DNA of 64,000 nucleotides, taken from Rhizophagus irregularis. Taxonomy: Eukaryota; Glomeromycota; Glomeromycetes; Glomerales; Glomeraceae. This document shows positions 12,614 through 64,000 of this stretch, in pieces. The stretch spans positions 1,302,001 through 1,366,000 of the forward strand of contig NC_089445.1 in assembly GCF_026210795.1 (NCBI RefSeq), written 5' to 3'. The notes under the pieces are model-generated. The model did no database searches and had not been told where the DNA came from. It was given only the letters and a program-made list of their open reading frames with translations. Every line of letters begins with the position of its first letter. The stretch's first letter is position 1. A program made the translations under genes and the position numbers.

Positions 12614-13987
12614 ATGCCACAAGTTTCAAAACGCCAACGTAGTTCGTATTCTATTGAGCAAAAAAAAATTGTCGTTGCTTATGCTAAGGAACGTGGCAGA
12701 AATGAAGCTTCTAGGCACTTTGAACTTGATGCTAGTATGGTTGGAAGGTGGGTCAAAGCAAGTTTAAACTGGAAAGATGAAACAAAAGCAACAAACATGA
12801 GTGTAGGTTCTGGCCGAAAAGCATTTTATCCTGAAGCAGAAGTGGAGTTATACAAATGGGTTATGGAACAAAGAAAAATGGCATTAGCTATAACCACAGT
12901 GAATTTACGAATTTCAATGTTTGAAATTTTAGACCGGCCAGAAATGATCTCTCTCTATGGTAATTCAATAGAAACATTTAAGGCAACATCTAGTTGGTTA
13001 TCTGCATTTATGAAAAGGTATAAATTGGCTTTACGGCGGCGTACAAAAGTGTCACAAAAACTACCTGAACAAACAGAAGAATTATTGGAAAAATTTCGCA
13101 GATTTGTCATTCGAATTAGGGTCAGAAAATCTTTTGAATTGTGTAATATTTTTAATATGGACGAAACGCCTGTCTGGTTTGACATGGCTGGAAATTTTAC
13201 CATTCATACGAAAGGTGATAAGACAATTCATATTCGTGGAACAGGAAATGAAAAAAACAGATTTACAGTAGTTTTAACATGTGCCGCAGGTAAGATTTAC
13301 ATTAAATTTATGGTTTTTATTAGTTTTTAAATAAAATAACAATTTTTTTTATTTATAATAGATGGAACTAAATTTCCGGCAATTTGTATTTTCAAAGGAA
13401 AACAAATGCCACGCGGAGAACAAGCACCTTCTGGTGTGATTGTTTGGTTCCAAGAGAGTGGATGGATGAATACAGACTTAATGAAACGGTATGTTGATTA
13501 TCTCAAACGTTCAAGAATAATGACAAACGGTCAATCCAGCTCTCCTGCATTGATGGTGTATGATTCTTTTAGAGGACATTTAGAAGAATCTGTTAAAAAC
13601 GCATTTCATGATACTAATGTTGATTTGGCAGTAATTCCGGGTGGTTTGACTAGCATTTGTCAACCACTTGATGTTGCAATCAACAAGCCATTTAAAGACA
13701 ACCTCCGTAAAGAATGGCACCACTGGATGTCTAATGGTGGTGCTGGGTATACTACTTCAGGAAACCTTCGACGTGCTAAAATAAGTGATGTTTGTAAATG
13801 GGTTAAGCGTGCATGGGAGAATATTTCGGATGATATTATTATCCGTTCTTTTAAAAAATGTGGTATATCTAATGATTTAGATGGATCGGAAGATGATCTT
13901 GTTTATGAAGAAATTGATGAACTTCTTAAAGAACTTCAAGATGAAAATGAGGAAATGGATGAAATTGATTTTATCGATACAAATTAA
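12614..13987 (+). CDS. Pogo/CENP-B-like DDE transposase, intact, 433 aa
   Basis: Two exons (12614-13289 and 13362-13987) with a 72-base GTAAGA...ATAG intron join in frame. The N terminus (about residues 10-60) is a basic helix-turn-helix DNA-binding region of the kind in pogo/CENP-B proteins, followed by a second HTH-type segment (CENP-B-like, about 70-150). The DDE catalytic core begins with NMDETPVWFDM (first Asp near residue 182), then MVYDSFRGH (second) and PGGLTSICQPLDVAINKPFK (third Asp), the standard DDE_1 spacing. The acidic C-terminal tail (ELLKELQDENEEMDEIDF) is also usual. No stop or frameshift is seen, and length is within the family range. The ATG at 12614 is the first in frame after the subterminal repeats. 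It probably cuts and pastes this element and any non-autonomous relatives. Confidence 0.93.
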
Positions 13988-15818: not shown

Positions 15819-18800
15819 ATGTGGCATTTAATTCGAAATCAAACATCATTTTCAACAACAAATATCGTACCAAAAAACGTTGAATCCAATGATAAGACAG
15901 AGAGCAGTAAACCTTTAAAGAAAGCCGTTTCCATGGATTCTTTGAAATCAACACCTATAAACGTAAAAAAGAGAAATGGTAGCATGGATGGAAATGTATT
16001 TAGTTATGGTAATTGGTTTATAAATGATAAGGTATGATACATTTATTTAGCTATATTTGTTCTTTTAATATATGAATTGAAATTAATTTTAATGAATCTA
16101 TTTCTAATTTCTTTTCTTAAAGAAATTATCCCTAAGTGATCAGTCAACAACAAGTTCACAGGATGATAATTACGTGATTGCTTTGATCGGTAAGCCAACT
16201 GTTGGTAAATCAACAATTGTGCGAACGGGTATGAATAATTTGACACCAATAAAAAATATTGGCGTAGATCATAATATAATAAAAGGTAAAGTATTTATTA
16301 TTATGATAATAAAATATTAAATTATTTTATTATTATGATAAAATTATTGTTTATTTATTATTTTCTTCTCTTTTCTATTTAGCGCCAACGTTTATATCAG
16401 AAATTGAGGTCGATGATCAGGCGTATCCAGTTGAAGTGCTGGAAATTCAAGAGAATGTTTTTGACATGAAATCTCCATTGCAATGGCCAAAAGTAAGTTT
16501 GATTTCACAATGAAATATCCATCAATCACATTAAATCACATAAAATTTTAATTGGCTAAATAATTTTATAATTAGGAGCTCCCTGAAATCGATGGAATTC
16601 TAGTTTGTTATGACGTCACTTCACGTGAATCAATAGCAAATATAGCATGGCTTCTAAGTATGTTATATATATTCGTGTCGTATAATTTTTATGATTTATT
16701 AATCATTTTATAATGTATTCTTTTTATATAGGTGCTTTCAAAGAATTTCAAATTCCAACAATACTGGCTGCTTGTAAAGTAGATTGTGAATTATCAAAAC
16801 GTAAAGTTGATGCATCATTTGGTCCGAAACTTGGTGATTTATTTCGTATTGGGTTTGTTGAATTGGACACACGTTCTGATGCTGGAATTGAGAAAATACA
16901 TGATGTATTTTCAATGTTATTAAGATTAGCAATACGGCATAGAGGTAAATATGCAATAATATTTTTAAAATATGATTCCTTAAAACATTTCTGCCAATGT
17001 TCTGCCCATGAATAGAAAAAGTTTTATTTATTTTCATCTTTTTTGTTTAGATTTCTCTCGAAAAAATAAAGTAAATAGGACAGCTGAATCATCGTCGGAT
17101 TCTATATTTTTACAAAATGTTAGTAGTGATGCTGAATCGGATAAAGTATCTTTAAGTCACAGAAGAACATCAAGTGATTTAAGTTATGAACCAAGAGGTC
17201 GAAGAAGGTTCTCAAATTTACCAGCTGTACGATTTATGAGCAGTCGATATAGTTCCCATTTTGGTACTCCAAAAATCGATTCACGAAAATGTAAGTTAAT
17301 AATAATCATATTTTATTACATTATACTTTATAAATAATATAAATTCACTTTTTTTTAGTATCACGATATCCATTAAATATGTTAAGCAGTGATGAAGAAG
17401 GTAAATCTTCAATTACTTTTCTTTCACGTTCTTTTCCTCATTTTTATATCATATTTCGAATTTTTAAAAACAATCTTCATTAATATATAGCAACAACACC
17501 ACCTCAAACACCACCAACACCTTCAATCTTATCTCAAATGTCGCTTCCTTCGGCTCCATCATCTCCTAAACTCTATAATACCGAAAAGAGACGTTCAATT
17601 TTACCTTCAACGAATTTATTACAGGTGAAAGAAACTGAAGAAGAAAGTTTCTCTACAAGATCCGCAAATAGTAGAATTTCAACTGCAAGTTATGATTCTG
17701 TTCTAAGTTCAATGAGTGGAAGAAGTGATAATTCTTTAGATGCTCTAGATTCTATTGAAAGGGGTCAAGTTAAATGTACTGGGTATGTATTAGTTACATC
17801 AATAATGGTGTACATTTGAAAAACTTTGTTTCAATTGAAATGTTTTGTAAAACGAATCCTTTTATATGAAAATTTTTTATATTGGAATGATTTATTAAAA
17901 TTTTTTTGACTTGATTCATAGAAATCGTACGGATGGTATGACAATCGATGAATTGATTCATCGATTAACCATTGGAGGTCAATATGGTACACATGATGAT
18001 CCATTTACGATAACATTCTTTGTCGTTTATCGAGCTTTCATGAGACCTAGAGAAGTTTTGGTCAAATTAGTACAAAGATTTCATGAATGTGAAAAGGATG
18101 TAAAGGATTTTAAAGATAATCGAAACACAACACATGAGAAGTAAGTTTATTCAATTAATTATGTTCTTTTATTTTAATATTTTATTTAATTAATGATTAA
18201 AAAAAAATAATTTTTTTTTTTAGGATATGTAACTTGTTGTATAATTGGTTAACTCAACATCCTAACGATATGATTCACCCTCATACTCGACACATGTTAC
18301 GAAATTTCTTTGACGTAATATCAAGCAGATCACATCTTACGTACTACGCTATTACTCTAAAGTCATTAGTTTATGGCACAGTTCCTGAAGAAGACCCTGA
18401 TTCCTTTTGGGGATTAACCGATGTTGATGATGATGAGATTACTAAAGAACAACATATAGAAAAACCGAAAATGGCTACTATTGGTACAAAAAAAGATAGT
18501 GGTATTGGTAGCTGGATCTTATGTGATGACAAAAATGATGCTTTATCTCTTTCACGACTTGCTCGACCAAGTCTTACAAATCATCGTAAAGCTTCCATAA
18601 TAATTGTAAATAATGAGTCAACTGGAAGACCTATATGTCAAGTACCATTCGAAGAATTACCCGAAAAGTCGATTGCGAATGAATTAACGTATCAGGAATT
18701 TCACCTTTTCAAAAAAATTGTGCCAAGGGACATGTTAAGGCACATTTGGTCTCCACAAGGAAGTCCTCAACGTGAAAATGGGAGGGTTGCTCAATCTATT

Positions 18801-19821
18801 AAACATTTTAATCTTATTTCTAACTGGTAAGTAATGAAATACTTGATCGAATTACTTTAATGAAATGTATTAATAACTTTATTAAAATTATTTAATAGGG
18901 TTTCTACGATGATTTTATCCCAGGACAAATTGAAAAATCGCGCAGCTATGTTGAAAAAGTTCATGAAAGTAGCAGTAGTAAGTATAATGGTTCTCATAAA
19001 TAGTGTACTATATTATACATTAGAAATTATTTCTCAAAAATTTATCATTTTATTTCTTATTAGATTGTCAGGGAATTAAATAATTACAATACTTTAATGG
19101 CAATTATTGCTGCAATAAATTCTGCCCCAATTGCGAGACTTCGTCGCACACGTGAACTTATAAAGGGAAAATCGACATACAAAAAATTTCATAATTTGGA
19201 AGTTTTGATGTCAACGGACAAGTCTTTTGGTAACTATCGATTGGCCTTGAAGGCTCCATCACGTGGCTATGATGAACAATTTGGGATACCTTATCTGTAT
19301 GTATCTTTTTATGATTAATAGTTATTCCATTTCTAAATTCTAAATTGTTTTACTAATCATTTAATTTTTAAAATCAATATAGTGGTATTCATTTACAAGA
19401 TTTATTGTCCATTGGAGAAGGTAACAAAGACTTTCAGGAAAATGGCAAAGTTCATTGGAATAAATTCTCTCTTATGGGAGATATAGTAAACATGATACGA
19501 AATTTTCAAAAGAAGTATGTATTATTTTAACACCGTTATTATTATTAAATCATAATTGTAAATATATTAATTAATCTTTGTAAATTTGTTATAGATCATG
19601 TAATGTTAAGAACAATAAACTTATTGAAAAATTTATTTCTGAAACGGTGGTATTGAACGATGATGTAAGTACATTCATTTTTCATTTCACACTCAAAAGC
19701 TATTATACGTATAATAACCGATCATGAATGAATCTTTTAATTATAGGAATTATATAATAGGTCTTTGGAATTAGAACCTCGAATTCAAAGATCTGCAAGT
19801 ACAAGTAGAGTACGAAGATAA
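15819..19821 (+). CDS. Ras-like domain fused to RasGEF (Cdc25-type exchange factor), 921 aa
   Basis: Fifteen exons: 15819-16031, 16123-16285, 16383-16492, 16576-16657, 16732-16944, 17051-17290, 17359-17400, 17491-17782, 17922-18140, 18224-18826, 18899-18977, 19064-19296, 19383-19514, 19595-19664, 19747-19821. Phases agree throughout. Residues about 85-270 form a Ras-like fold with a P-loop GKPTVGKS (94-101) and CKVD (204-207) where Ras has NKxD; the DxxGQ switch is not recognisable, so GTP hydrolysis is doubtful. A Ser/Pro-rich linker follows. RasGEF-N lies at about 452-590 and the catalytic RasGEF domain at about 676-895 (LTYQEFHLFKKI, HFNLISNWVSTMIL, GIPYLGIHLQDL). The predicted role is nucleotide exchange on a Ras-type GTPase at membranes. 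Long spacer loops interrupt the region between the two GEF parts. Confidence 0.92.
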
Positions 19822-29227: not shown

Positions 29228-30702
29228 TCAATTAATTTCGATAAGCGACTCTAGTTCACACCTAGCTATACCATCTCCACGAAAAGTACCCAAAAGCATT
29301 ACATTCCTTTGCCTATCTGCAGTAGCAATTGATACGGAAGGTAAGATGCTTCCATTATCCTCAAAAATTATCTTTTGAGAATATTTTATTCCGTAGAATT
29401 TATCTTCGGCTGTATTGTTACTTACTTTTATGATAGCAGCTGGTTGTGGAGGAGCTGTTCCAGTGCGATCTCTCATATAAACCAATGCAGCCAAAGGTTT
29501 TTGTGTTGCTATCAAAAATAAATAAACAAATAAATAAATATACAACTCGTTATATTTTTAATATATACATACCAGCACAATAAATTTCACCAGTTTGTTC
29601 ATCAACACTTATGTTATCAATTGATAGTCCGGTAAATAAACTTTCCGATAGATGAAGTTTATTATTTGATTTACGATCATAAATTAAAAGTTCTCCACCA
29701 GCAGAAGTTCCAACATATATTTTAGAATTATCCCAATTTGAAGTTATTCCATTAGGATATCTTATACTATCTGCAACAATCTCAGTTGTATTCGTAATTG
29801 AAGAATGAAATACAACATTTCCCCATGGACGACGAGTAATATCTAAATAAATTAAATAATACGCGTAAAAAAATGCAGACATAATATATATACATACATA
29901 TGCATGTAATTTTATATACCACCAAATTCTCTCCAAAATCCGGTTTCATGACCATGATCATTAGTAACATAAAATTCATCCTTTGAAACGGGTACGACAT
30001 CATTTGGAGTAATAATTAAATCATTTTTAACGGTACTTAAATGAACTAATTCATTTGTGTTCAGGATATGTTCAAAGATTTCAATAACACTACCAGTTTT
30101 TTTGTGATTTGTAAAAAATACATATAATTTATTTGGTTCATTTTTTTCATCCTCGTATATTCCCATTCCACATAACAAAAAATCTTCTTCCGGTGGAAAA
30201 TTTTTTAATTCAAGTGGAATAAGTTTATCATTCTAATAAAAAAACACTTTAAATATAATTTTTGTCACGATAAAAAAAAAAGAAAGATTATAATTGATAA
30301 TATACATACATTAATGTCATAAATGTAAGGAGTATCTCTTATTAGTTGAGTCGTATCTGTAATAAGGTTAATTGGTGGATAAAATACTTGACTTCTAATC
30401 GTTTTATCACCACAGGCCATAAAAGCGTGACCAGTTCGATGATGAATAACTATATCTTCACAAGTTTCAATTCCTAATAAATTCAATCGTAAGAAATAAG
30501 AATTATTCAAATTTTTCAATTACTTTTCAAAAGATAAATCAGATATATAATGACCTTCAATTACTCTACATTTTCCTCCTTCGTAAGGTTTAATATCTGG
30601 TCTTCTAAATCCAGAAATAGTTATAGATTCATCTATCCAATTATAAGATAATGCAGTTATAACTGCAATTATAATAACAATAATTGTCGCCGCGTTTTGC
30701 AT
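29228..30702 (-). CDS. Paraoxonase/arylesterase-like six-blade propeller enzyme, 391 aa
   Basis: Five exons on the minus strand: 30702-30555, 30473-30310, 30232-29920, 29842-29573, 29508-29228. An N-terminal hydrophobic segment (about residues 4-22, AATIIVIIIAVITAL) acts as a signal anchor, as in animal PONs. Conserved features are CRVIEGIETCEDIVIH (GxExCED type calcium-site region), ITPNDVVPVSKDEFYVTNDHG, YPNGITSNWDNSKIYVG, LSIDNISVDEQTGEIYCAG and a final GDGIARCELESL. These fit the arylesterase/PON family, calcium-dependent lactonases or esterases. The first intron uses a weak GTCATT donor; a better-looking GTAATT donor 34 bases downstream would lose the frame. The motif CxxIxGxExCED supports the chosen site. 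Substrate unknown. Probably membrane-anchored or secretory. Confidence 0.88.
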
Positions 30703-30941
30703 ATTATAGTTCGTGAAATTTTAAAATGAGATATCGTTAAAAAGTGGCCTTCTACTAAGCACTTCGGGAAAATACTAAAATAGGCTAATATGTATGTTTT
30801 TTCTCACGAAAAAACCACCCTCATAAAAAAATTGAACGTGTAAATTTTTATGGTGATGTTACTGATGATCATGATGATCATTGAAAAGTCATTTCGAAAA
30901 TTTACTGCGCCATTTTCATCGATCCCATAATTTGCGATTTG

Positions 30942-30955
30942 AGCATAAATAGACC
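30942..30955 (+). promoter_or_regulatory. TATA-like element upstream of the U1 snRNA
   Basis: GCATAAATAG lies about 30 bases before the mapped 5' end of the U1 RNA, the usual TATA distance. No proximal sequence element consensus is known to me for this lineage, so assignment is by position only. Confidence 0.4.
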
Positions 30956-30977: not shown

Positions 30978-31142
30978 ATACTTACCTGCCAGGACACGAC
31001 CGTGAACATGAAGGCGGACGTGTAAGTGATGGTCGCTGACATTGCACAGCGTTGGTAACTGTTGCTTTGAACGCTCTTAATGAGTGTCTCAACTGGATAA
31101 TTTTTGTTTGTTGGGGTGGTTATGGTTCGCCGTAATCGCCCC
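30978..31142 (+). ncRNA. U1 spliceosomal snRNA, ~165 nt
   Basis: The RNA begins ATACTTACCTG (30978-30988), the invariant U1 5' end that pairs with 5' splice sites. Stem-loop I closes with ACACG/CGTGT and displays GAACATGAAGG, close to the U1-70K-binding loop. Stem-loop II (CGCTG/CAGCG) shows ATTGCAC (31041-31047), the U1A-binding loop. Stem-loop III is ACGCTC/GAGTGT. The CCAG near the 5' end (30988-30991) can pair with CTGG (31093-31096) as the long-range H helix. The Sm site is AATTTTTG (31099-31106). The final hairpin GGGGTGGTTATGG-TTCG-CCGTAATCGCCCC has a 13-bp stem with G-U pairs and a UUCG loop, ending at 31142. Length matches vertebrate U1 (164 nt). It lies in the plus orientation between PON and NDUFA4-like genes. 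Confidence 0.96.
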
Positions 31143-31192
31143 TATTATATTAAAAAGCGGGTTTTGGGTCAGGAAAGAGGGATGTGTAATGT

Positions 31193-31557
31193 CGAAATAT
31201 TAATAACTTAAAATTTAATCTTCTAAATTCTAATAATAGAATTTTTTTTTTTCTTTGTGGGTAAGTCGTAGGTTTAGAGACTATTTAAGCGATATATATT
31301 TTTTTAATTTCGAATTCTCAGATTGGGTAGATTTCAAATTTATCGCCGTTTTCAAAATGATGTATTGAAATATTAAATAACTTAAAATTTAATCTTCTAA
31401 ATTCTAATAATAGAATGTTTTTTTTTTCTTTGTGGGTAAGTCGTTGGTTTAGAAACTATTTAAGTGATATATATTTTTTTAATTTCGAATTCTCAGATTA
31501 CCGAAAGAGGGTAGATTTCAAATTTGTCGCCGTTTTCAAAATGATGTACGCAGTTAA
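31193..31557 (+). repeat. Tandem direct repeat, two ~174-base copies
   Basis: Copies start near 31193 and 31367. Shared blocks include TAATCTTCTAAATTCTAATA, CTTTGTGGGTAAGTCGT, GCGATATATA/GTGATATATA and TTCAAAATGATGTA. The second copy has a roughly 10-base insertion (CCGAAAGAGG) before the shared GGGTAGATTTC block. Copies are about 95% identical apart from that, suggesting a recent duplication directly downstream of the U1 gene. Confidence 0.9.
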
Positions 31558-31698
31558 ATTTGAATAAAAAAAAAAGAAACCCGAAAACCGGACGAAAACC
31601 GACGAAATATGGACAAAAAACGGATGAAACCCGGGCGAATATTGGTATTCGAATATACAATCACAAATAAACTGCGTACACCATTTTGAAAACGGCGA
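31527..31698. repeat. Inverted repeat (MITE-like arms) around GAAAMC-rich core
   Basis: Bases 31527-31555 (CGCCGTTTTCAAAATGATGT and onward) are matched, with one mismatch, by the reverse complement of 31670-31697. Between the arms lies a run of roughly 11-base units of the type GAAAACCGGAC/GAAAACCGAC/GGATGAAACCC. The left arm coincides with the end of the second tandem copy above, so the tandem repeat and the inverted element share a family sequence. Confidence 0.8.
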
Positions 31699-32845
31699 TA
31701 ATTACATCAAGGAAACGATAAAAATTTAGACATTCATTGTACATCCAATTTTTCACGCCAGAATAATATGAATTCATTTAATATGCTCGAAATCGCAATT
31801 CGCAATAATTCGTCTTCACGTGATAATAATAAAGAACTAAAGTCATGAGTTAGTTGATTATCGGGCGAATAATCTTGCCGACGCCGCATGGCTTAATTCC
31901 AAATCGGATTAAAAGATCTAAGAGGCGCAATAAGTAAATTGACTAGCCATTTTAGTAATTACGCAATCATAACATAAATTAAAAATTTCTAAAAAAAAAA
32001 AAAGGCTTACGTACTCAAAATAGATTCTTTGGTGGAGATGACCGAAATTAGACATCTTTTTTTTTTTGCGTCAGTTGATTAAATCTTTTATGACTATCCA
32101 CTATTTACTTGACAAAAAAAAACTAATAAATTAAAAATTTATTAAAAAAATTACTTTTCATAATTAATTTGATACTGACACTCGAACAAGTGACTCCGAA
32201 TATTATTTAACTATTTTTATGTGAGAAGGAGAAATTGCATCATAGTGTGTGGTCGCACATTACGTTAGCAGAATTTCTTTGGTTCCGCATTCTTCCGTAA
32301 CAAAGTAATTCAGCTGTGATACTTTGAAAGTATACAATGTGGAATACCCGAATCAAAGATCCCATATGATTCGTATTTATTTATTTATTCATTTTCTTTC
32401 TTTTTTTTATTGCCAATCAGTTAGAATAAGGTTACTTTTATTACAAAAAAAAACCCGATTGTATTTATAACCCAAAATAATCAAATATTAACCTCATTTA
32501 GAAAATTTGACTCAGGAAAAAATCTGTCAAGATTTTATTTACCATAGATGCTCCTGCATGGCTGCATTATTATTTTATTATGAATTCATTAAATATGTAT
32601 AAACATATTATACACGTATTTTTTTACGCCCGTTTATTGCCGTTCACGGCGGAACTTCCCGGCTTTGTAAAATATATAAACCGTCTCCTCCTTTTCACGT
32701 TCAAGAAAAAAATTTTTTTTCACATAAACAATTTTATAATAATCGTACAGGATATTATTATTATATTATATTATCATCCTTTGCCACAGAAAAAAAATTT
32801 TCTCTCTCACTTTTCAAATTAAATACATCAATACATCAAATCAAA
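31699..32845. other. Intergenic upstream of NDUFA4-like gene
   Basis: No coding signal. Moderately A+T-rich with A and T runs; the last 150 bases contain an ATTATATTATATTATC tract and are presumably promoter and leader. No defined element recognised. Confidence 0.6.
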
Positions 32846-49313: not shown

Positions 49314-50832
49314 ATGAAAAGTAACAAAGTGTTACGTTCAAAAAAACAAAAAAAAGTTGCAACTAAAAAGAATATTAATAAAACGTTAAAATCTAAACCT
49401 TCTAAAAGTTCTTCTATAAAATCCTCATTACGAGAATCAGAGAAGAGTAAATGTCGTTTAAAAGCTGCTTGGGCTGATATTATTAAACGATATCAAAATA
49501 TTTCTCCAGAACAAACTGACGTGATTGATTTAGTTACTGAGGAGATTGTAGTTGATAGAGGTATCTTACAAAAAGATAATATACGATATGTTGGAACTTT
49601 AGATTTACACGCTTCAAAACCTCAGGAAGACGCGATTGATGATGATTCAATTTGGCAACCGGATCCTAATTTATGTGAAAACGATACCGATTTTAATCAA
49701 CGAGTTTCTTTAAGAAAAAATAAGAATAAAACTAGCGATAAAACTAATGATATAATAGACGTACTCTTGGAAGGATCAAATGAATGTTTTGACTGGGAAA
49801 CAGAATCTAGCGATTATAACGAATTTAATGAGAATTTAGGAGATATTGATGAATCTTTTGATGAAATGTCAAATATAGAAGAAGAATCAGAAGTTTGTAG
49901 AAAAAACAATTCATCTTTTGAAAAAGAATCGTTAAAAATTACTAATAAACAATCAAGTACAGTTACTTCTTTAAGAAAAAATGATAGCGATAAAACTAAT
50001 GATATAATAGACGTACTCTTGGAAGGATCAAATGAAAGTTTTGACTGGGAAATAGAACCTAGCGATTATAACGAATTTTATGAGAATTTAAGAGACAATG
50101 AATCTTTTGATGAAATGTCAAATACAGAGGAAGAATCAGAAGTTTGTAGAAAAAATGATTCATCTTTTGAAAACGAATCGCTAAAAATTACTAATGGACG
50201 ATCAAATTCAGTTACTTTGACTGAAATCCCATCATCACAAAGTACAGAAAGTATAACTCAATCAAATTCTTCAAGACGACTCAAAGTATATAGTTTCAAT
50301 ACATTTGATTCAGGACATGAATCAGAAAGTGAAGATACAGATTCTGAGTGTTCTGATTCTGATTCAAACAATGTAATGATATACGCACAAGAGAAAAATT
50401 TGGATTATACACAAGAAGCTCAACAGGAGACTTTAAATCATTGTCAAATGACTCAACAAGAAACTTTAAACTATTCAAGAGTGATTCAACAAGGGACTGT
50501 AGACTATTCTCGAATGACTCAACAAGAGTCTGTAAACTATTATCAAGTGACTCAACAAGAGACTTTGAACTATTGCAAAATGCAGTCTATAGATCATTCT
50601 CAACGAGAGATTTTAGAATTCATACAAACGATACCTCCAGCTTCGCTCACTCAGGAACAACAGCGTCTTTGGTTAGGTATGTCGTTATATTTAAATTCGT
50701 TTCTTTCTTTTTTTTAAAAAAAAATCGATTTCTTACATCAAAATATTTGACAAAATAGAACCAACATCTGAAGACTATACGCAATTATTGACTTGGACTG
50801 ACAAACATGTGGGACACGGATTATTGAATTAG
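49314..50832 (+). CDS. Scm3/HJURP-like protein (putative CENP-A chaperone), 478 aa
   Basis: Two exons: 49314-50676 and 50759-50832. The N terminus is basic. Residues 48-86 (AAWADIIKRYQNISPEQTDV then IDLVTEEIVVDRGIL) match the Scm3/HJURP family signature: a helix ending in W..I..KY, then a D.IDL.T.EIVVDRG loop that contacts the CENP-A/H4 dimer. Family members escort CENP-A to centromeres. The middle holds a tandem duplication of about 83 residues (DNA 49708-49966 and 49967-50214). A C-terminal set of five 11-residue repeats, consensus (V/M)TQQETLNYSR, covers 50415-50579. The last exon adds a short GHGLLN tail. Acidic Ser-rich middle regions are common in this family. Identification rests on the short signature alone. 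Confidence 0.75.
49708..50214 (+). repeat. In-frame tandem duplication inside the Scm3-like gene
   Basis: Two units of about 250 bases each begin TCTTTAAGAAAAAAT and share long identical stretches such as GATAATAGACGTACTCTTGG. They differ at roughly 10% of positions and by two in-frame indels, so the frame is kept. This is a fairly recent expansion of the coding region. Confidence 0.93.
50415..50579 (+). repeat. Five tandem 33-base coding repeats
   Basis: Each unit encodes 11 residues of the type TQQETLNYSRV. Divergence between units indicates an older array than the 250-base duplication. Confidence 0.9.
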
Positions 50833-56409: not shown

Positions 56410-58494
56410 TTATATCTCGCCAACAACTTCTTCAAAAATACCTTTACATCTAACTTTGGCACCTAATTTAGCACAAAGTAAAAATGCGCCGGATAATTTT
56501 CTGTGTAAGCTGTAAGTTTCATCAGGCGGTGGAGTTAATCTATATTTCAACATTGTAGGTATTAAATCTTTTACTCTTTTAGTTATAGTTTGTTTAGAGA
56601 AATCATACATGACTTCTGAAAATGGTTCTCCTAATGTCAATATTGAATCAATATGTGCATTTCTCATAACCTATAAATTTACATAATAGAGGAATTAGAA
56701 TATATGCAAAAAATTACATAAATTATAAAAATTATAAAATAATATATATATATATATATTACCTCAGTTTCATATCCTGTTAGATAGCCTATTTGTTCTG
56801 AATAAAATAAACATCCTTCTCTATCTCCTTTTGCTGCCGATTTTAGAATTTGCAAGTATAAATTTATGAATTTGGAATCAAATCCTCTACTTGCTCCAAA
56901 ATCTACTAATTCAATCTAATAATATATTATTATAAATATCATGATGAAATATATTATAAATATATAAATATAACAATAATTAAAATTTTTTACCTTTCTT
57001 GTTTTAGTATTGTATAAGAAATTAGTCCAGTTCGGATCAGTTTGCATAAATTGAAATTCAGCTAACTCTCTTAAACTAAGTTTCAAGATATTTTCACCAA
57101 TCTAATAAATTCATTTAAATAATTATTCATAAACATGAGAATATCTCATTTTTTTAAAATACGTACTTTGTTTCTGAGTTCTTGGCTATAGTAAACAGCA
57201 TAAGTTAAAGGTTCGCCCATCATTTTTTCACTAGTTAAAACCATTTTTGTAGAATATTCTTTCATCACTTTAGGTACAACAAAATCCTTATCATCTTTTA
57301 AAAGTTCTCCAAATTTCTCCATACAGGTAGCTTCCCTAACGTAATCAGTTTCCCATGCTAATTCTCTTCTTGCTACTTTAATTGTATTATCAAGGTAAAG
57401 TCCTTTGGGCAATAAATTGCTCATTATTACTAAAGTTCTTAGATTATTCAAGTCTGAATCGATCGAAGCCGCAACTCCTGGATATTGTACTTTAATTGCT
57501 ACTGGTAAATAGGGAGGTTTGGATAATTGAGCATTATGAACTTGGCCTATTGATGCTGCTGCCATTGGAATCGGATCAAAAGTTTTAAAATTATCACGCC
57601 AATTTAGACCAAGTTCCTTTGCCATTACTTTCTAATTTGAAAATTGTTTAGTTTAATATTAAGTATTAAAAATTTAATAACTCAGCCTTTTTACCTTACC
57701 TCCATTTGCCAATTTGGCATATAATTGGCACTATTCTGAACACGCAACAATACTTTTTCCAATTGTACAGGTAGCATATCATTATCTGTAAAAATAAGTG
57801 TTATGTAAATTATATAATAGAAAATCGTAATGATATAGTTTTGTTTTATTTACCTTGAATACTTATCATCTGTCCCAACTTCAATGCAGCTCCGCGCATT
57901 CGAGATAATTTATTAACCAGACGCTCTATATTGGCTTCACTCATCAATACCGAGCCACCTTCAAAATTAAAATTACATATTAATCATATCTCAAATTATT
58001 TTATTTATTCTGATAAAATAATTAATTACCTTTTGTTTTTGAAATTCCCGTAGCTCTTCGAACAGCCTCACTCATAGCTCCTGCTCCCAATCCAATAGCC
58101 AATCCTAAAAATTTACAATTGTTAAATTTGTTTAAAAACTAATATTTAATAAACTTCTAAACTTACCTCCATAATGAAAAAATCGACTAACTCTTGATGT
58201 GGGTATTTTTGATTTTTTAAGTGTATTCTCTTTATTAGAATGTTCTTGCGTTTCAATAATTGATGCTTTATATGTATTTGGTTCATCTATTATAACTTTG
58301 GAATCTAAAGTTGTCATTGGGAGGCGAATGTCCTGTGCTTGAGGTGATGGTTTTTGATATTTAACAGACCATCGCCAATTAGAAGTTTTATAAAACCATT
58401 CGGTGTTTTTTGATTGTATTTGCAAAAAATTTGATCCAATTTTAGCAAACGCGTTAGCAATACTATAAGTATCAGCTAAACGTTGAGAAGACAT
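56410..58494 (-). CDS. coq8: COQ8/ABC1 (ADCK3-type) atypical kinase for ubiquinone synthesis, 526 aa
   Basis: Eight exons on the minus strand: 58494-58167, 58104-58030, 57958-57854, 57785-57700, 57631-57167, 57101-56994, 56915-56763, 56670-56410. The diagnostic KxGQ motif is KLGQ (residues 161-164) in [15 protein letters not shown]. The alanine-rich loop that replaces the glycine loop is AAASIGQVH (222-230), followed by VAIKVQYPG. The catalytic region reads [12 protein letters not shown], and the metal-binding motif is VDFGASRGF (DFG at 394-396). These define the COQ8 branch of the ABC1 family, which supports coenzyme Q biosynthesis in the mitochondrial inner membrane. The first 110 residues are variable and basic/Ser-rich, consistent with a mitochondrial presequence. 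Length is normal. Confidence 0.95.
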
Positions 58495-58781: not shown

Positions 58782-59155
58782 ATGGAATACTCTAAGGGTA
58801 TAAAACTAATTCATTTCGTTGTTATTGTTCTTTTATGAATATAAATTTATTCGATAATTTTTTTATTTAGACACAACGTACATTAGAGATTCGCAAATTT
58901 TGGAACCAGAAATTGACCACGTAATAGATATAACGAATAATGAATCACAAAATTATATAGACCCATTGGAAATTGCAACAGTTTCTACGGAAGAAAATGA
59001 TTTAGATACAATTTCTACAAAAGCTACGGTAGCACCAGTTAATGATCTTCACAATACTCCATCACATTGGAATAAATTGAGAAATTTGGTAGTGGTCGAT
59101 GAGAATATTCCACAGACGCCTATACCATCGGATTTGTTTAGTAACCAAAACAACA

Positions 59156-59187
<32 letters not shown>

Positions 59188-62100
59188 TCTGATGATGCTG
59201 AGAGAACAAGTGTATTGTCAAAATCAAGTTCAAAACGGGATATTTATCAAGGAAATGCTTTGAAGATGTTAAGATTTAAATCTACCGTACAACAAAGATC
59301 AGATGTGAATAAAATGGAAAAGGATCTAGAACGATTAATTACTAGAACATATGGTGGTAATATGTTTACAAGCATAGGAGGTAGTGGAAACTCTGCAGGC
59401 TCTTTAGGTCCTTTACCTGTAAATGATAAAGGAAATAAACAACAAGTAGATATACTAAGAGAGGATAGTGTAAGAAGTGCGGGGGGTCATTTTAATTTTT
59501 TATCGGAACTTTATAAATTATTGAAAAGATGGAAGCATGTGGTGAAATTACCTGACAGTCATCAAATATTATCCGAATTAGCCAAACCATTTTATAATTA
59601 TCCAGGGAATGGTAGGTTTGATGTTCAATAATTTTTTTTAAAAAATTTATTTTATTTTATATCATTATACGTAATTTTATTTACTATTGTTAAAATTTAC
59701 TATTGTAATTCAGCCGATGACTGTAATCAATCATTGGATATTTTTGAATATATTAGGGCTACCTATAGGCCTGCAGATCCTGATGTATGTTTTTTAATGT
59801 TATAAATCTCCTTTTCTTTTTACATTTAATTGAAAATTTTTTCTATTAATATCAAAGGAAAATTTTGCGCGAATTCAATGGTGTTGTAAATTATTAGAAA
59901 CGCATCATAGTATAATTAGGGTAAGTTTCAATTTCAAAATTTTTATCAATTGTTTCCGAAAATTGTTTTTTTAGTAAAAAAGTAACTCTTTTTTAGAACC
60001 GCCTATGTGATATAACAGAAAAATTGTTAAACGCTACGGCAATGAATTCATATTTTCCTACTTCAGTAGCTGCAATTCATTCACTTATATATACATTTAT
60101 TCATACATTAGTTGTTACTGCTTCGTCCAATTTAAAATCAGAAGAATCGAACAAATTATTTAAAATGGTTGATGGATTTTTGTCTCGATTGGCCGCTGGA
60201 ACTTTAATCTCAATTGATCCAGATGAAATGACAATTGGGAATGCTAGAGTACAAATTAACAAATACGATAGTTTGGCTCGTTGTATATTTGTAGAGGGCT
60301 TAGTTAAATGTCTGCTAGTTAAAGATGTTCAGCTATGTAAATATATTATGGAGAATCTTATAGGGGTGAGTTTGTGTAATATTGTTAATTTAAATATTAA
60401 ATTGGCCTAAGTTAATAAATTTGTAATATCTACTTTAGAAATATTGGATAACTCCCGACTTATCTATGCAGTCTTTATATGAGCATATTATTCAATTATT
60501 TGCTCAATCTGCAATTGAGATACTAGCTGATCCAAATATGTCGTTCATTGATTCATCAAATCCCTATATTTCATTACCCTATCTAATACTTCATACGCTA
60601 AACCAAAATTTACCCCCAAAAAATCTTAGAAGTATGCCATCTCATATAGTAAGATCACTTGTAAGCGTGGTAGTATCAATTTTTGCTCTGCCTTGGCCAG
60701 ACAATAACTCTCAAAGCTCAAAGAAACAATATAATCTACCAATTAGAAGCTCAAGTAATAATCAAAAAATGAGTGGAAATGAAACCGACAATGAAACTTC
60801 AGCTGGGGACATTGATTCAAAATATAAAAATACTAGGCCGAGTTTAAATAAGATTAATGATGGTTTATTAACACCCGGAAGTATAAGACAATCATCGGAG
60901 ATCGATATATTAAGATTGGCTAAGACATATATTGAGTATTTATGGAATGAAGGATGGAAGAATGAAGTTGTTGAACTTGTTAAAGAAGCTGTGAGTTCTT
61001 TTCTTTTTTAAAAAAAAAATTAATATTTATTGTCCATTTATTTACCTTCTTCTTACCATCTTTAGTTTGAACAAGATGATTTAGATAGGATTATCACTAT
61101 ATTTAATCAATTAGTGTTTGGAATAAGTGACTCCATAGGCGATGATATAGTAAAAGAAACCATACCAGATTTGTTTGCGGTATGTTGTTTATTACATTGA
61201 TTACTTAAATTTGAAAAATTGCTTACATATTGGATTCAATTTAAAGAAAATAGTGAAAATTCGACCAGAAAAATCAGCAAATCTAAAGAAAATACTTTTG
61301 TCACTATCCACTAAGTATCGTGCACACTTTTATAAGCCAATCCTTGCTTGTGTTGCGTCGGATAACGAATCAAAAGTGTCCGAATATCTTCATCTCATAT
61401 CAACTTTGTTAAATTACATGAATGGTGTTGAATTATTTATGCAAGACGTTGAATTGATGAATGTTATAATTTTAAGTGATGTTGGACCTAGTTCAGTTAA
61501 AAATGAAGAAGATAAGCATAATTCCAAACTAACTGTTTCATCTACTACTTCTCAAGTAAATACATGGGGCTCAACCACAGTGGGTCAATGTGCTATTATC
61601 ATGGAGTTTATCTGGATTATCCGAGAATTAAGATTACAACAATCATCTGACGTATGTAATTTTATGATAATATTTAATTTTAGATTACATTGATTCTTAC
61701 AGTGCTAATTTAAAATTATAGCGTGCCAAAGATTCAAAGCATGATACAATCGCGAAGAAATTTTTGAATGAGCTTGAAAAGCGGTTATCGATATTCATGG
61801 TTGCAAAGGTAACCAAATTTGTTAATTAATATTATTATGTGATATTTATTTGGTTAATTTATAAAATTTTATATAATTTATAGGAGAAATCTAAATTAAT
61901 TCCAATGCCATTGCGTGTATTGCTTTGTAATCTATTCTTTGAAATAAGATTATATTGTAAAACAACTTACCGGTATATTATATAATTTAAATTTTTTTTT
62001 TTTCATTTTAAACGTTAATAATACGTGAATATCTTATTTTAGACCAGGTTGGCTTTCCCGAATAATTGACTGGACAGTACATTCTTCGCCAGTAATTCAT

Positions 62101-64000
62101 AGGGATTCCATGTCGTTTGGCTTAAATCAAAATCCATTCACTGCGCAATCAGAGTTAGAAGCAGATAATAATCAACTTAATGAAGTTGAATTCATATTTC
62201 AAAGAATTAGAGTTGTATACGCAACATTGGATGATTGGAATTCTTCGGATACCGATAGGGTTATTATTTTTTTCCATTTAATGTTAATTTTTAGAAAAAA
62301 TGAATTTTATTGAATATTTTTATTTATAAATTAGGACGAATTTTTAGATGTTCCAGTGCCTGCAATACCAAGAGTACCTGTTACTCCTTCAACTCCAAAT
62401 ACTCCAAAAACACCAATCACTCCATATAATGATCTGCGACGCAGTTCGACTGTAGTTCCATCGTCGGGTCCCGCTGTCAATACACCAAGAAGGATATCAT
62501 CTAAATTACCTAAACAACGTCTTCATAGATTTAATACCTTTTCTGACGATCCTGCATTTTCATTTTTATCTTTACTGGTTGCTGTATTCAACACTATAGC
62601 AGAGGAAGAGTTTACTAGGCTAGCACCGCACCTTTGGAATAGATTTTTGAATGACAAAAAGCATAAGCCCTTTGCTTCTGCTTCATTTCTGTTTATACTT
62701 TGTGGCGAAAAATCACCTGAAACTGTAAAGGATTTTATCATGAAGGATTTGTACAGGTAAAATTTTTTTTAATGTTTTATATCTGCGTATCTTAATTTCA
62801 GTTTTACTAATTAACTATTTACTACTATAGTACAAATGCCCTAGTTCGTGCTATAACTATTTATAAAATATCATCCTTATTTGGTCACCGAAATCAACTT
62901 CTATCACAATCTTATGTATCAGATTCGACTCGAAAACGTCCTTTTCGTGTACAGGCACCTGCAATTCCTTATATACCAACTGAACTAGGTACTCAAGATG
63001 TAATGATGTACGAATCATCAAAAGAATCGAAAAGTAAAAATTCTCATCATGACGTTGATCAGAGAATACAGGAACTTGGTTGGGAGGTGGTAGATGAATC
63101 TGAAACCGAATCGGATCGTTCAAAGCGTATCGTGACACCAATATCACTTTTATCTACTTTCCATCTTGATGAAGAGGTACTTAAGCAAAGAGATGAGGCT
63201 ACACCTATACAAACAGCTCGTGATAAAATTAGGAGGAATATTCGTAGTGAGGTTATATCAAATATGCAAGGAAATACAAATAAGCGAAGGATTATTTCAG
63301 TTCATATTTTAAGTTTCTTCTCTTTAAGACTTGTAGATTTATTAGATGATATTCATTGTGGTGTATATAACCTCGCTAAAGAAATAATAATCTACTTTCT
63401 TAGAGATGATCCTCTATTATTCCTGCGAATTTTTTTCAGTGATTTGGGCACGTTAAATTTTGAAACGCAGAAAAAGTTACTCACGAGAATACGTTTCCTT
63501 ATTTCGATGCAGCATGTTTTCCCGCCCGGATTTACTTATATGTTATTTAACCATCTTGCTGGAATATTAAAATGGTATTCCAGAGATAACAAAGAAAATG
63601 GTTTAGGTTTAATGACTTACATCATACCTACAATGGCTGAAATGGTACCGACAGTTAGTAACATACTTGTTAGAGATTTCAAGAAAAATAAGATTGAACA
63701 TATTCTTTGCAATAATGGGCAGTTCTGGTTTACTGATGGAACCCCTCCTTCAATGTTTCCAAGGGAATTAACTAATGATGAAGTTACATTCAATATACTT
63801 GATGTTCCACTAATTATGTTTCAAGTAGCGATGCTTCGAGTTGGACATATACATTTTATGACGAATTATGTTGTAGCATGGCCACAAGAGGTTTATTCAG
63901 TAAAAAAAATGATTCACGCATTTGCCCCAACTCATTTAACTGACAATCTAGTGAATGTAAATGAGGAAGAAAAATATTTTCCAGATATTGAAAAGGCACA
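58782..64000 (+). CDS. Very large protein, UNC80-like (5' part, runs off the window)
   Basis: Thirteen exons seen: 58782-58797, 58871-59611, 59714-59784, 59858-59920, 59997-60365, 60439-60990, 61066-61179, 61247-61651, 61722-61808, 61884-61972, 62043-62259, 62335-62756, 62831-64000 (open). The 16-base first exon encodes MEYSK; its GTATAA donor fits the phase of exon 2. About 1438 residues are visible. Helical-repeat segments dominate, with an Asn run near residue 100, a Pro/Thr-rich linker (RVPVTPSTPNTPKTPITP) and FSFLSLLVAVFNTIAEEEF. The opening region (HWNKLRNLVVVDE, RNRLCDITEKLLNA) recalls fungal proteins annotated as cation-channel-complex UNC80 homologues, which partner NALCN/Cch1-type channels. 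That assignment is from memory and tentative. No transmembrane segments stand out, as expected for an UNC80-type scaffold. Confidence 0.8.

Follow-up and report, generated by a model that had tools for sequence, protein, structure and literature searches.

Positions 30978–31142 on the plus strand of the window (the whole 64-kb stretch of DNA analysed here) probably hold a functional U1 snRNA gene in an AT-rich eukaryotic genome, probably a fungal one, a reading to which we assign a probability of roughly 0.93 on the strength of a family-model match and the RNA's own predicted fold. U1 is the small RNA that marks intron starts for splicing, and a eukaryote with introns is expected to have a gene for it. 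Scanning the window with cmscan revealed a match to the U1 family of Rfam (RF00003) at 30978–31144 (+), with a covariance-model score of 94.4 bits (E 2.4e-22) that exceeds the family's gathering score of 69.5 bits, and with an alignment that spans model positions 1–166 of 166 and is not truncated. U1 was the sole Rfam family to reach the gathering level in the window; when E-values of up to 5 were admitted, the other two matches were to unrelated families, RAGATH-30 (26.7 bits, cut-off 59.5) and ES003 (22.7 bits, cut-off 37), both far short of the cut-off, and were rejected.

The original prediction had described a complete U1 snRNA gene at this position, and the model match, a check of its pairs and the fold uphold its identity, ends and parts. 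The Infernal run with RF00003 returned the same 5′ end, 30978, and a 3′ end of 31144 as compared to 31142; we place the 3′ end of the predicted RNA at 31142, where the UUCG hairpin ends, giving a length of 165 nt. GC content is 0.48 in the 167-base match versus 0.29 in the 500 bases on each side, and ranges from 0.146 to 0.320 per 4-kb block of the window. Four open frames of 45 codons or more overlap the gene, and none of them matches a Pfam family.

Parts and fold of the predicted RNA

The 5′ end of the RNA, ATACTTACCTG (30978–30988, +), is an exact match, is unpaired in both the minimum-energy and the centroid fold, and is complementary to 5′ splice sites of the form CAG/GTAAGTAT; a motif search and the fold likewise find the U1 5′ end AUACUUACCUG present and unpaired. 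When up to one mismatch is allowed, ATACTTACCTG occurs twice in the window, where 0.99 occurrences would be expected; the 5′ motif by itself is therefore weak evidence, and the whole structure carries the case for U1. Helix H follows, also on the plus strand like all further parts, its 5′ strand (30989–30992) forming four pairs with its 3′ strand (31093–31096) in the fold. Between these strands lie stem-loop I, the predicted U1-70K site (30994–31023), with the loop GAACATGAAG at 31004–31013; stem-loop II, the predicted U1A site (31024–31067), whose loop holds ATTGCAC (AUUGCAC in the RNA); and stem-loop III (31068–31091), the last two being placed by both the Rfam alignment and the fold. The Sm site region, ATAATTTTTG (31097–31106), is unpaired in the fold and aligned to the unpaired AUAAUUUgUG of the Rfam consensus, and alignment and fold agree that the putative Sm site, AUAAUUUUUG, lies open between helix H and stem-loop IV. 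Stem-loop IV (31113–31142) has 13 pairs, three of them G-U, and a TTCG loop, and forms the 3′ end. CATTGCAC, ATAATTTTTG and the TTCG-capped 13-pair stem are all found in the locus, and sequence, pairs and fold put the U1A loop, the Sm site and the final hairpin where they had been predicted to lie. A candidate TATA-like box read from the sequence, ATAAATAG (30945–30952, +), precedes the 5′ end by about 30 bases and could be a promoter element, a weak indication in AT-rich DNA.

Folded alone, 30978–31142 adopts a free 5′ end and a four-way junction in which helix H closes stem-loops I–III, and this unconstrained fold also contains the open Sm stretch and the 13-bp stem-loop IV with its UUCG. 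The minimum-energy structure (51 pairs, 12 of them G-U) has an energy of -58.6 kcal/mol and a z-score of -3.40, and none of 200 dinucleotide-shuffled sequences reaches so low an energy. Given human U1, the same program did not return the known U1 shape, so the fold of the locus is support rather than a test that every true U1 passes.

We also compared the pairs of the RNA with those of the Rfam consensus. One of the 46 consensus pairs is gapped; of the 45 ungapped pairs, 42 are standard and three non-standard, as compared to a mean of 18.9 and a maximum of 33 standard pairs when the 3′ letters were shuffled 10,000 times. The alignment behind this count had been fitted to the U1 model and is biased towards pairing; the unconstrained fold agrees with it. 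Relative to the consensus, 23 of the 42 standard pairs are changed on both sides, three on one side and 16 not at all, indicating that the four-way junction is retained through compensatory changes. Compensatory change of this extent would be expected from a gene under selection, and helices kept through 23 two-sided changes speak for a gene that works rather than one that has decayed.

If the RNA acts as U1 RNAs do, Sm proteins would assemble on it at AUAAUUUUUG, U1-70K would bind loop I and U1A loop II, after which spliceosome assembly would start from the pairing of the free 5′ end with 5′ splice sites. The analysis gives the sequence and the predicted structure, and we infer transcription, capping, protein binding and function because the RNA is a member of the U1 family.

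Loop I and alternative readings

Stem I is present, and its loop, GAACAUGAAG (31004–31013, GAACATGAAG), deviates from the Rfam consensus GAUCAaGAAG at two bases: the third, which is A at the locus and U in the consensus, and the variable sixth. Loop I of human U1 is GAUCACGAAG. The counterpart of this third base in human U1 is U30, a contact base that is reported to pack against Leu175 of U1-70K and to hydrogen-bond Asp177, with Leu196 also among the residues that hold it (PMC4383343). The change may be typical of the lineage and matched by changes in its U1-70K, it may simply be tolerated, or it may flag a variant copy. That A is normal here in this lineage, with the U1-70K contacts changed to match, is a tentative proposal that we think somewhat unlikely; if true, it would be a co-evolved departure from an RNA–protein contact that is, to our knowledge, widely conserved. 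The single change in loop I offers a small, testable case of RNA–protein co-evolution.

Could the locus merely resemble U1? The general layout is common to U1 and U11, as would suit a different snRNA, but where clan members overlap the scan reports the best match, which here was U1, at the E-value of 2.4e-22 given above. A chance array of hairpins is opposed by the behaviour of sequences that resemble U1 by pattern only. A pattern for the 5′ half of U1 was found at one viral and 12 prokaryote-genome loci, and one of these 13 is U1 by RF00003: it is a full-length U1 (positions 1121–1283 of the locus, 151.7 bits, loop I GAUCAAGAAG) on contig JAGQZA010000190.1, which is filed as a Flavobacteriaceae MAG and which we infer to be eukaryotic contamination. 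The other 12 lack a gathering-level U1 match, as do both viral loci found with a three-block U1 pattern; these two are near-identical stretches, and in one of them (L014) an open reading frame covers most of the match. We therefore regard another snRNA or a chance array as extremely improbable.

If the main U1 gene were located elsewhere and this locus were a U1 pseudogene of recent origin or a variant copy with weak expression, that would account for a loop I that reads GAACAUGAAG instead of the consensus, and snRNA pseudogenes are frequent in some genomes. The score of 94.4 bits, well below that of the U1 on the contig filed as Flavobacteriaceae, also counts against a working U1. A decayed or variant copy is hard to reconcile, however, with helices kept through 23 two-sided changes and with only three non-standard pairs, with an intact 5′ end, U1A loop and Sm site, or with a match that is full-length and lacks a long poly-A tail, and we consider this origin very unlikely. 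The evidence as a whole points to a functional U1 snRNA gene at 30978–31142.

Splice-site hexamers and surroundings of the gene

Counted over both strands, the window contains 44 copies of GTAAGT, the target of the U1 5′ end, including two in U1 itself and two in the repeat downstream, as compared to 25.1 expected (sd 5.3, maximum 39) from 100 first-order Markov simulations. This excess fits the U1 5′ end; GTATAT is in excess too (92 versus 65.2), so composition contributes to the GTAAGT excess. The same simulations gave 25 versus 24.6 for GTATGT, 6 versus 10.5 for GTGAGT and 13 versus 8.3 for GTACGT, and 20 simulations gave 22 versus 24.75 for GTTAGT, 30 versus 29.7 for GTAAGA and 104 versus 97.85 for GTAAAT. 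Intron-like composites give a weak signal, with 7 versus 2.7 for GTAAGT, 5 versus 2.95 for GTATGT, 1 versus 0.6 for GTGAGT and 0 versus 1.2 for GTACGT.

The original prediction considered a second U1 copy or pseudogene elsewhere likely. Neither a second U1 nor any other snRNA reached the Rfam gathering level in the 64-kb window, and a blastn comparison of the 165 U1 bases with the window returned, besides the gene itself, 14 short matches of 11–25 bases (best E 0.34). When U1 was compared together with 200-base flanks, the downstream tandem repeat was among the matches listed. This repeat begins about 50 bases downstream of U1 and has two copies with a period of 175 (31194–31548), each 175-bp copy containing GGGTAAGTCG. 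It runs into an inverted repeat (31524–31560 with 31665–31701) whose 37-nt arms are 89% complementary, lie 104 nt apart and enclose CGAAAACCGGA-type repeats. Together, the tandem and inverted repeats 3′ of U1 are perhaps a small non-autonomous transposon.

Upstream of U1, open frames on the minus strand at about 29228–30720 may together represent the exons of a single gene; of five frames scanned, the one at 29550–29936 matches an arylesterase and the other four have no match. If these frames form one gene, it would point away from U1 and start about 275 bases from it.

Elsewhere in the window, two open frames at 12614–13987 encode a transposase with a Tc5-type DNA-binding domain and a DDE_1 endonuclease, and single frames match RasGEF (18234–18830), cytochrome P450 (45902–47512), the centromere protein Scm3 (49314–50717, E 3.6e-12), which is mainly fungal, and an ABC1 kinase-like family (57146–57625). 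Exon-like open frames occupy 58900–62760, of which 62356–62760 matches the central region of UNC80 (E 7e-06) and three other scanned frames have no match. The low GC content and the Scm3 and Tc5/DDE_1 matches would suit an AT-rich fungus such as a glomeromycete, so that the early-diverging fungus of the original prediction is a plausible source.

Comparison with known U1 RNAs

A search of the open-licence literature found no paper on U1 snRNA in Rhizophagus, Glomeromycota, Mucoromycota or early-diverging fungi in general, which does not imply absence from print. The locus contributes a well-supported U1 for a probably sparsely annotated lineage and serves both annotation and U1 alignments, and the general picture of U1 is unchanged by it: U1 at 30978–31142 is a correct and ordinary annotation, real but expected. 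In Rhizophagus irregularis, four minor snRNAs have been reported (PMC10639083), and the assembly of Lichtheimia corymbifera is described as containing all major-spliceosome RNAs apart from U4, implying U1 (PMC4133162). The parallel with Lichtheimia is one of detection: there, too, homology located the RNAs in the genome of a basal fungus.

With RF00003 the locus has in common the 5′ end, the four-way junction, the U1A loop, the Sm site, a UUCG-capped stem IV and a length of about 165 nt. It differs in the third base of loop I, A rather than U, in 26 of the 42 standard pairs, which are changed on at least one side, and in stem IV, where 13 continuous pairs replace the interrupted stem of the consensus. 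Human U1 is 164 nt long and carries UUCG in stem IV. The original prediction was accurate in describing a compact 165-nt RNA with a UUCG cap, and it suggested that the length would inform the ancestral fungal U1; a size of about 165 nt and UUCG are both usual for U1, and so carry little information on fungal ancestry. Budding-yeast U1, in which the 5′ end has the same role, is greatly enlarged at about 570 nt, whereas the U1 of this locus is compact.
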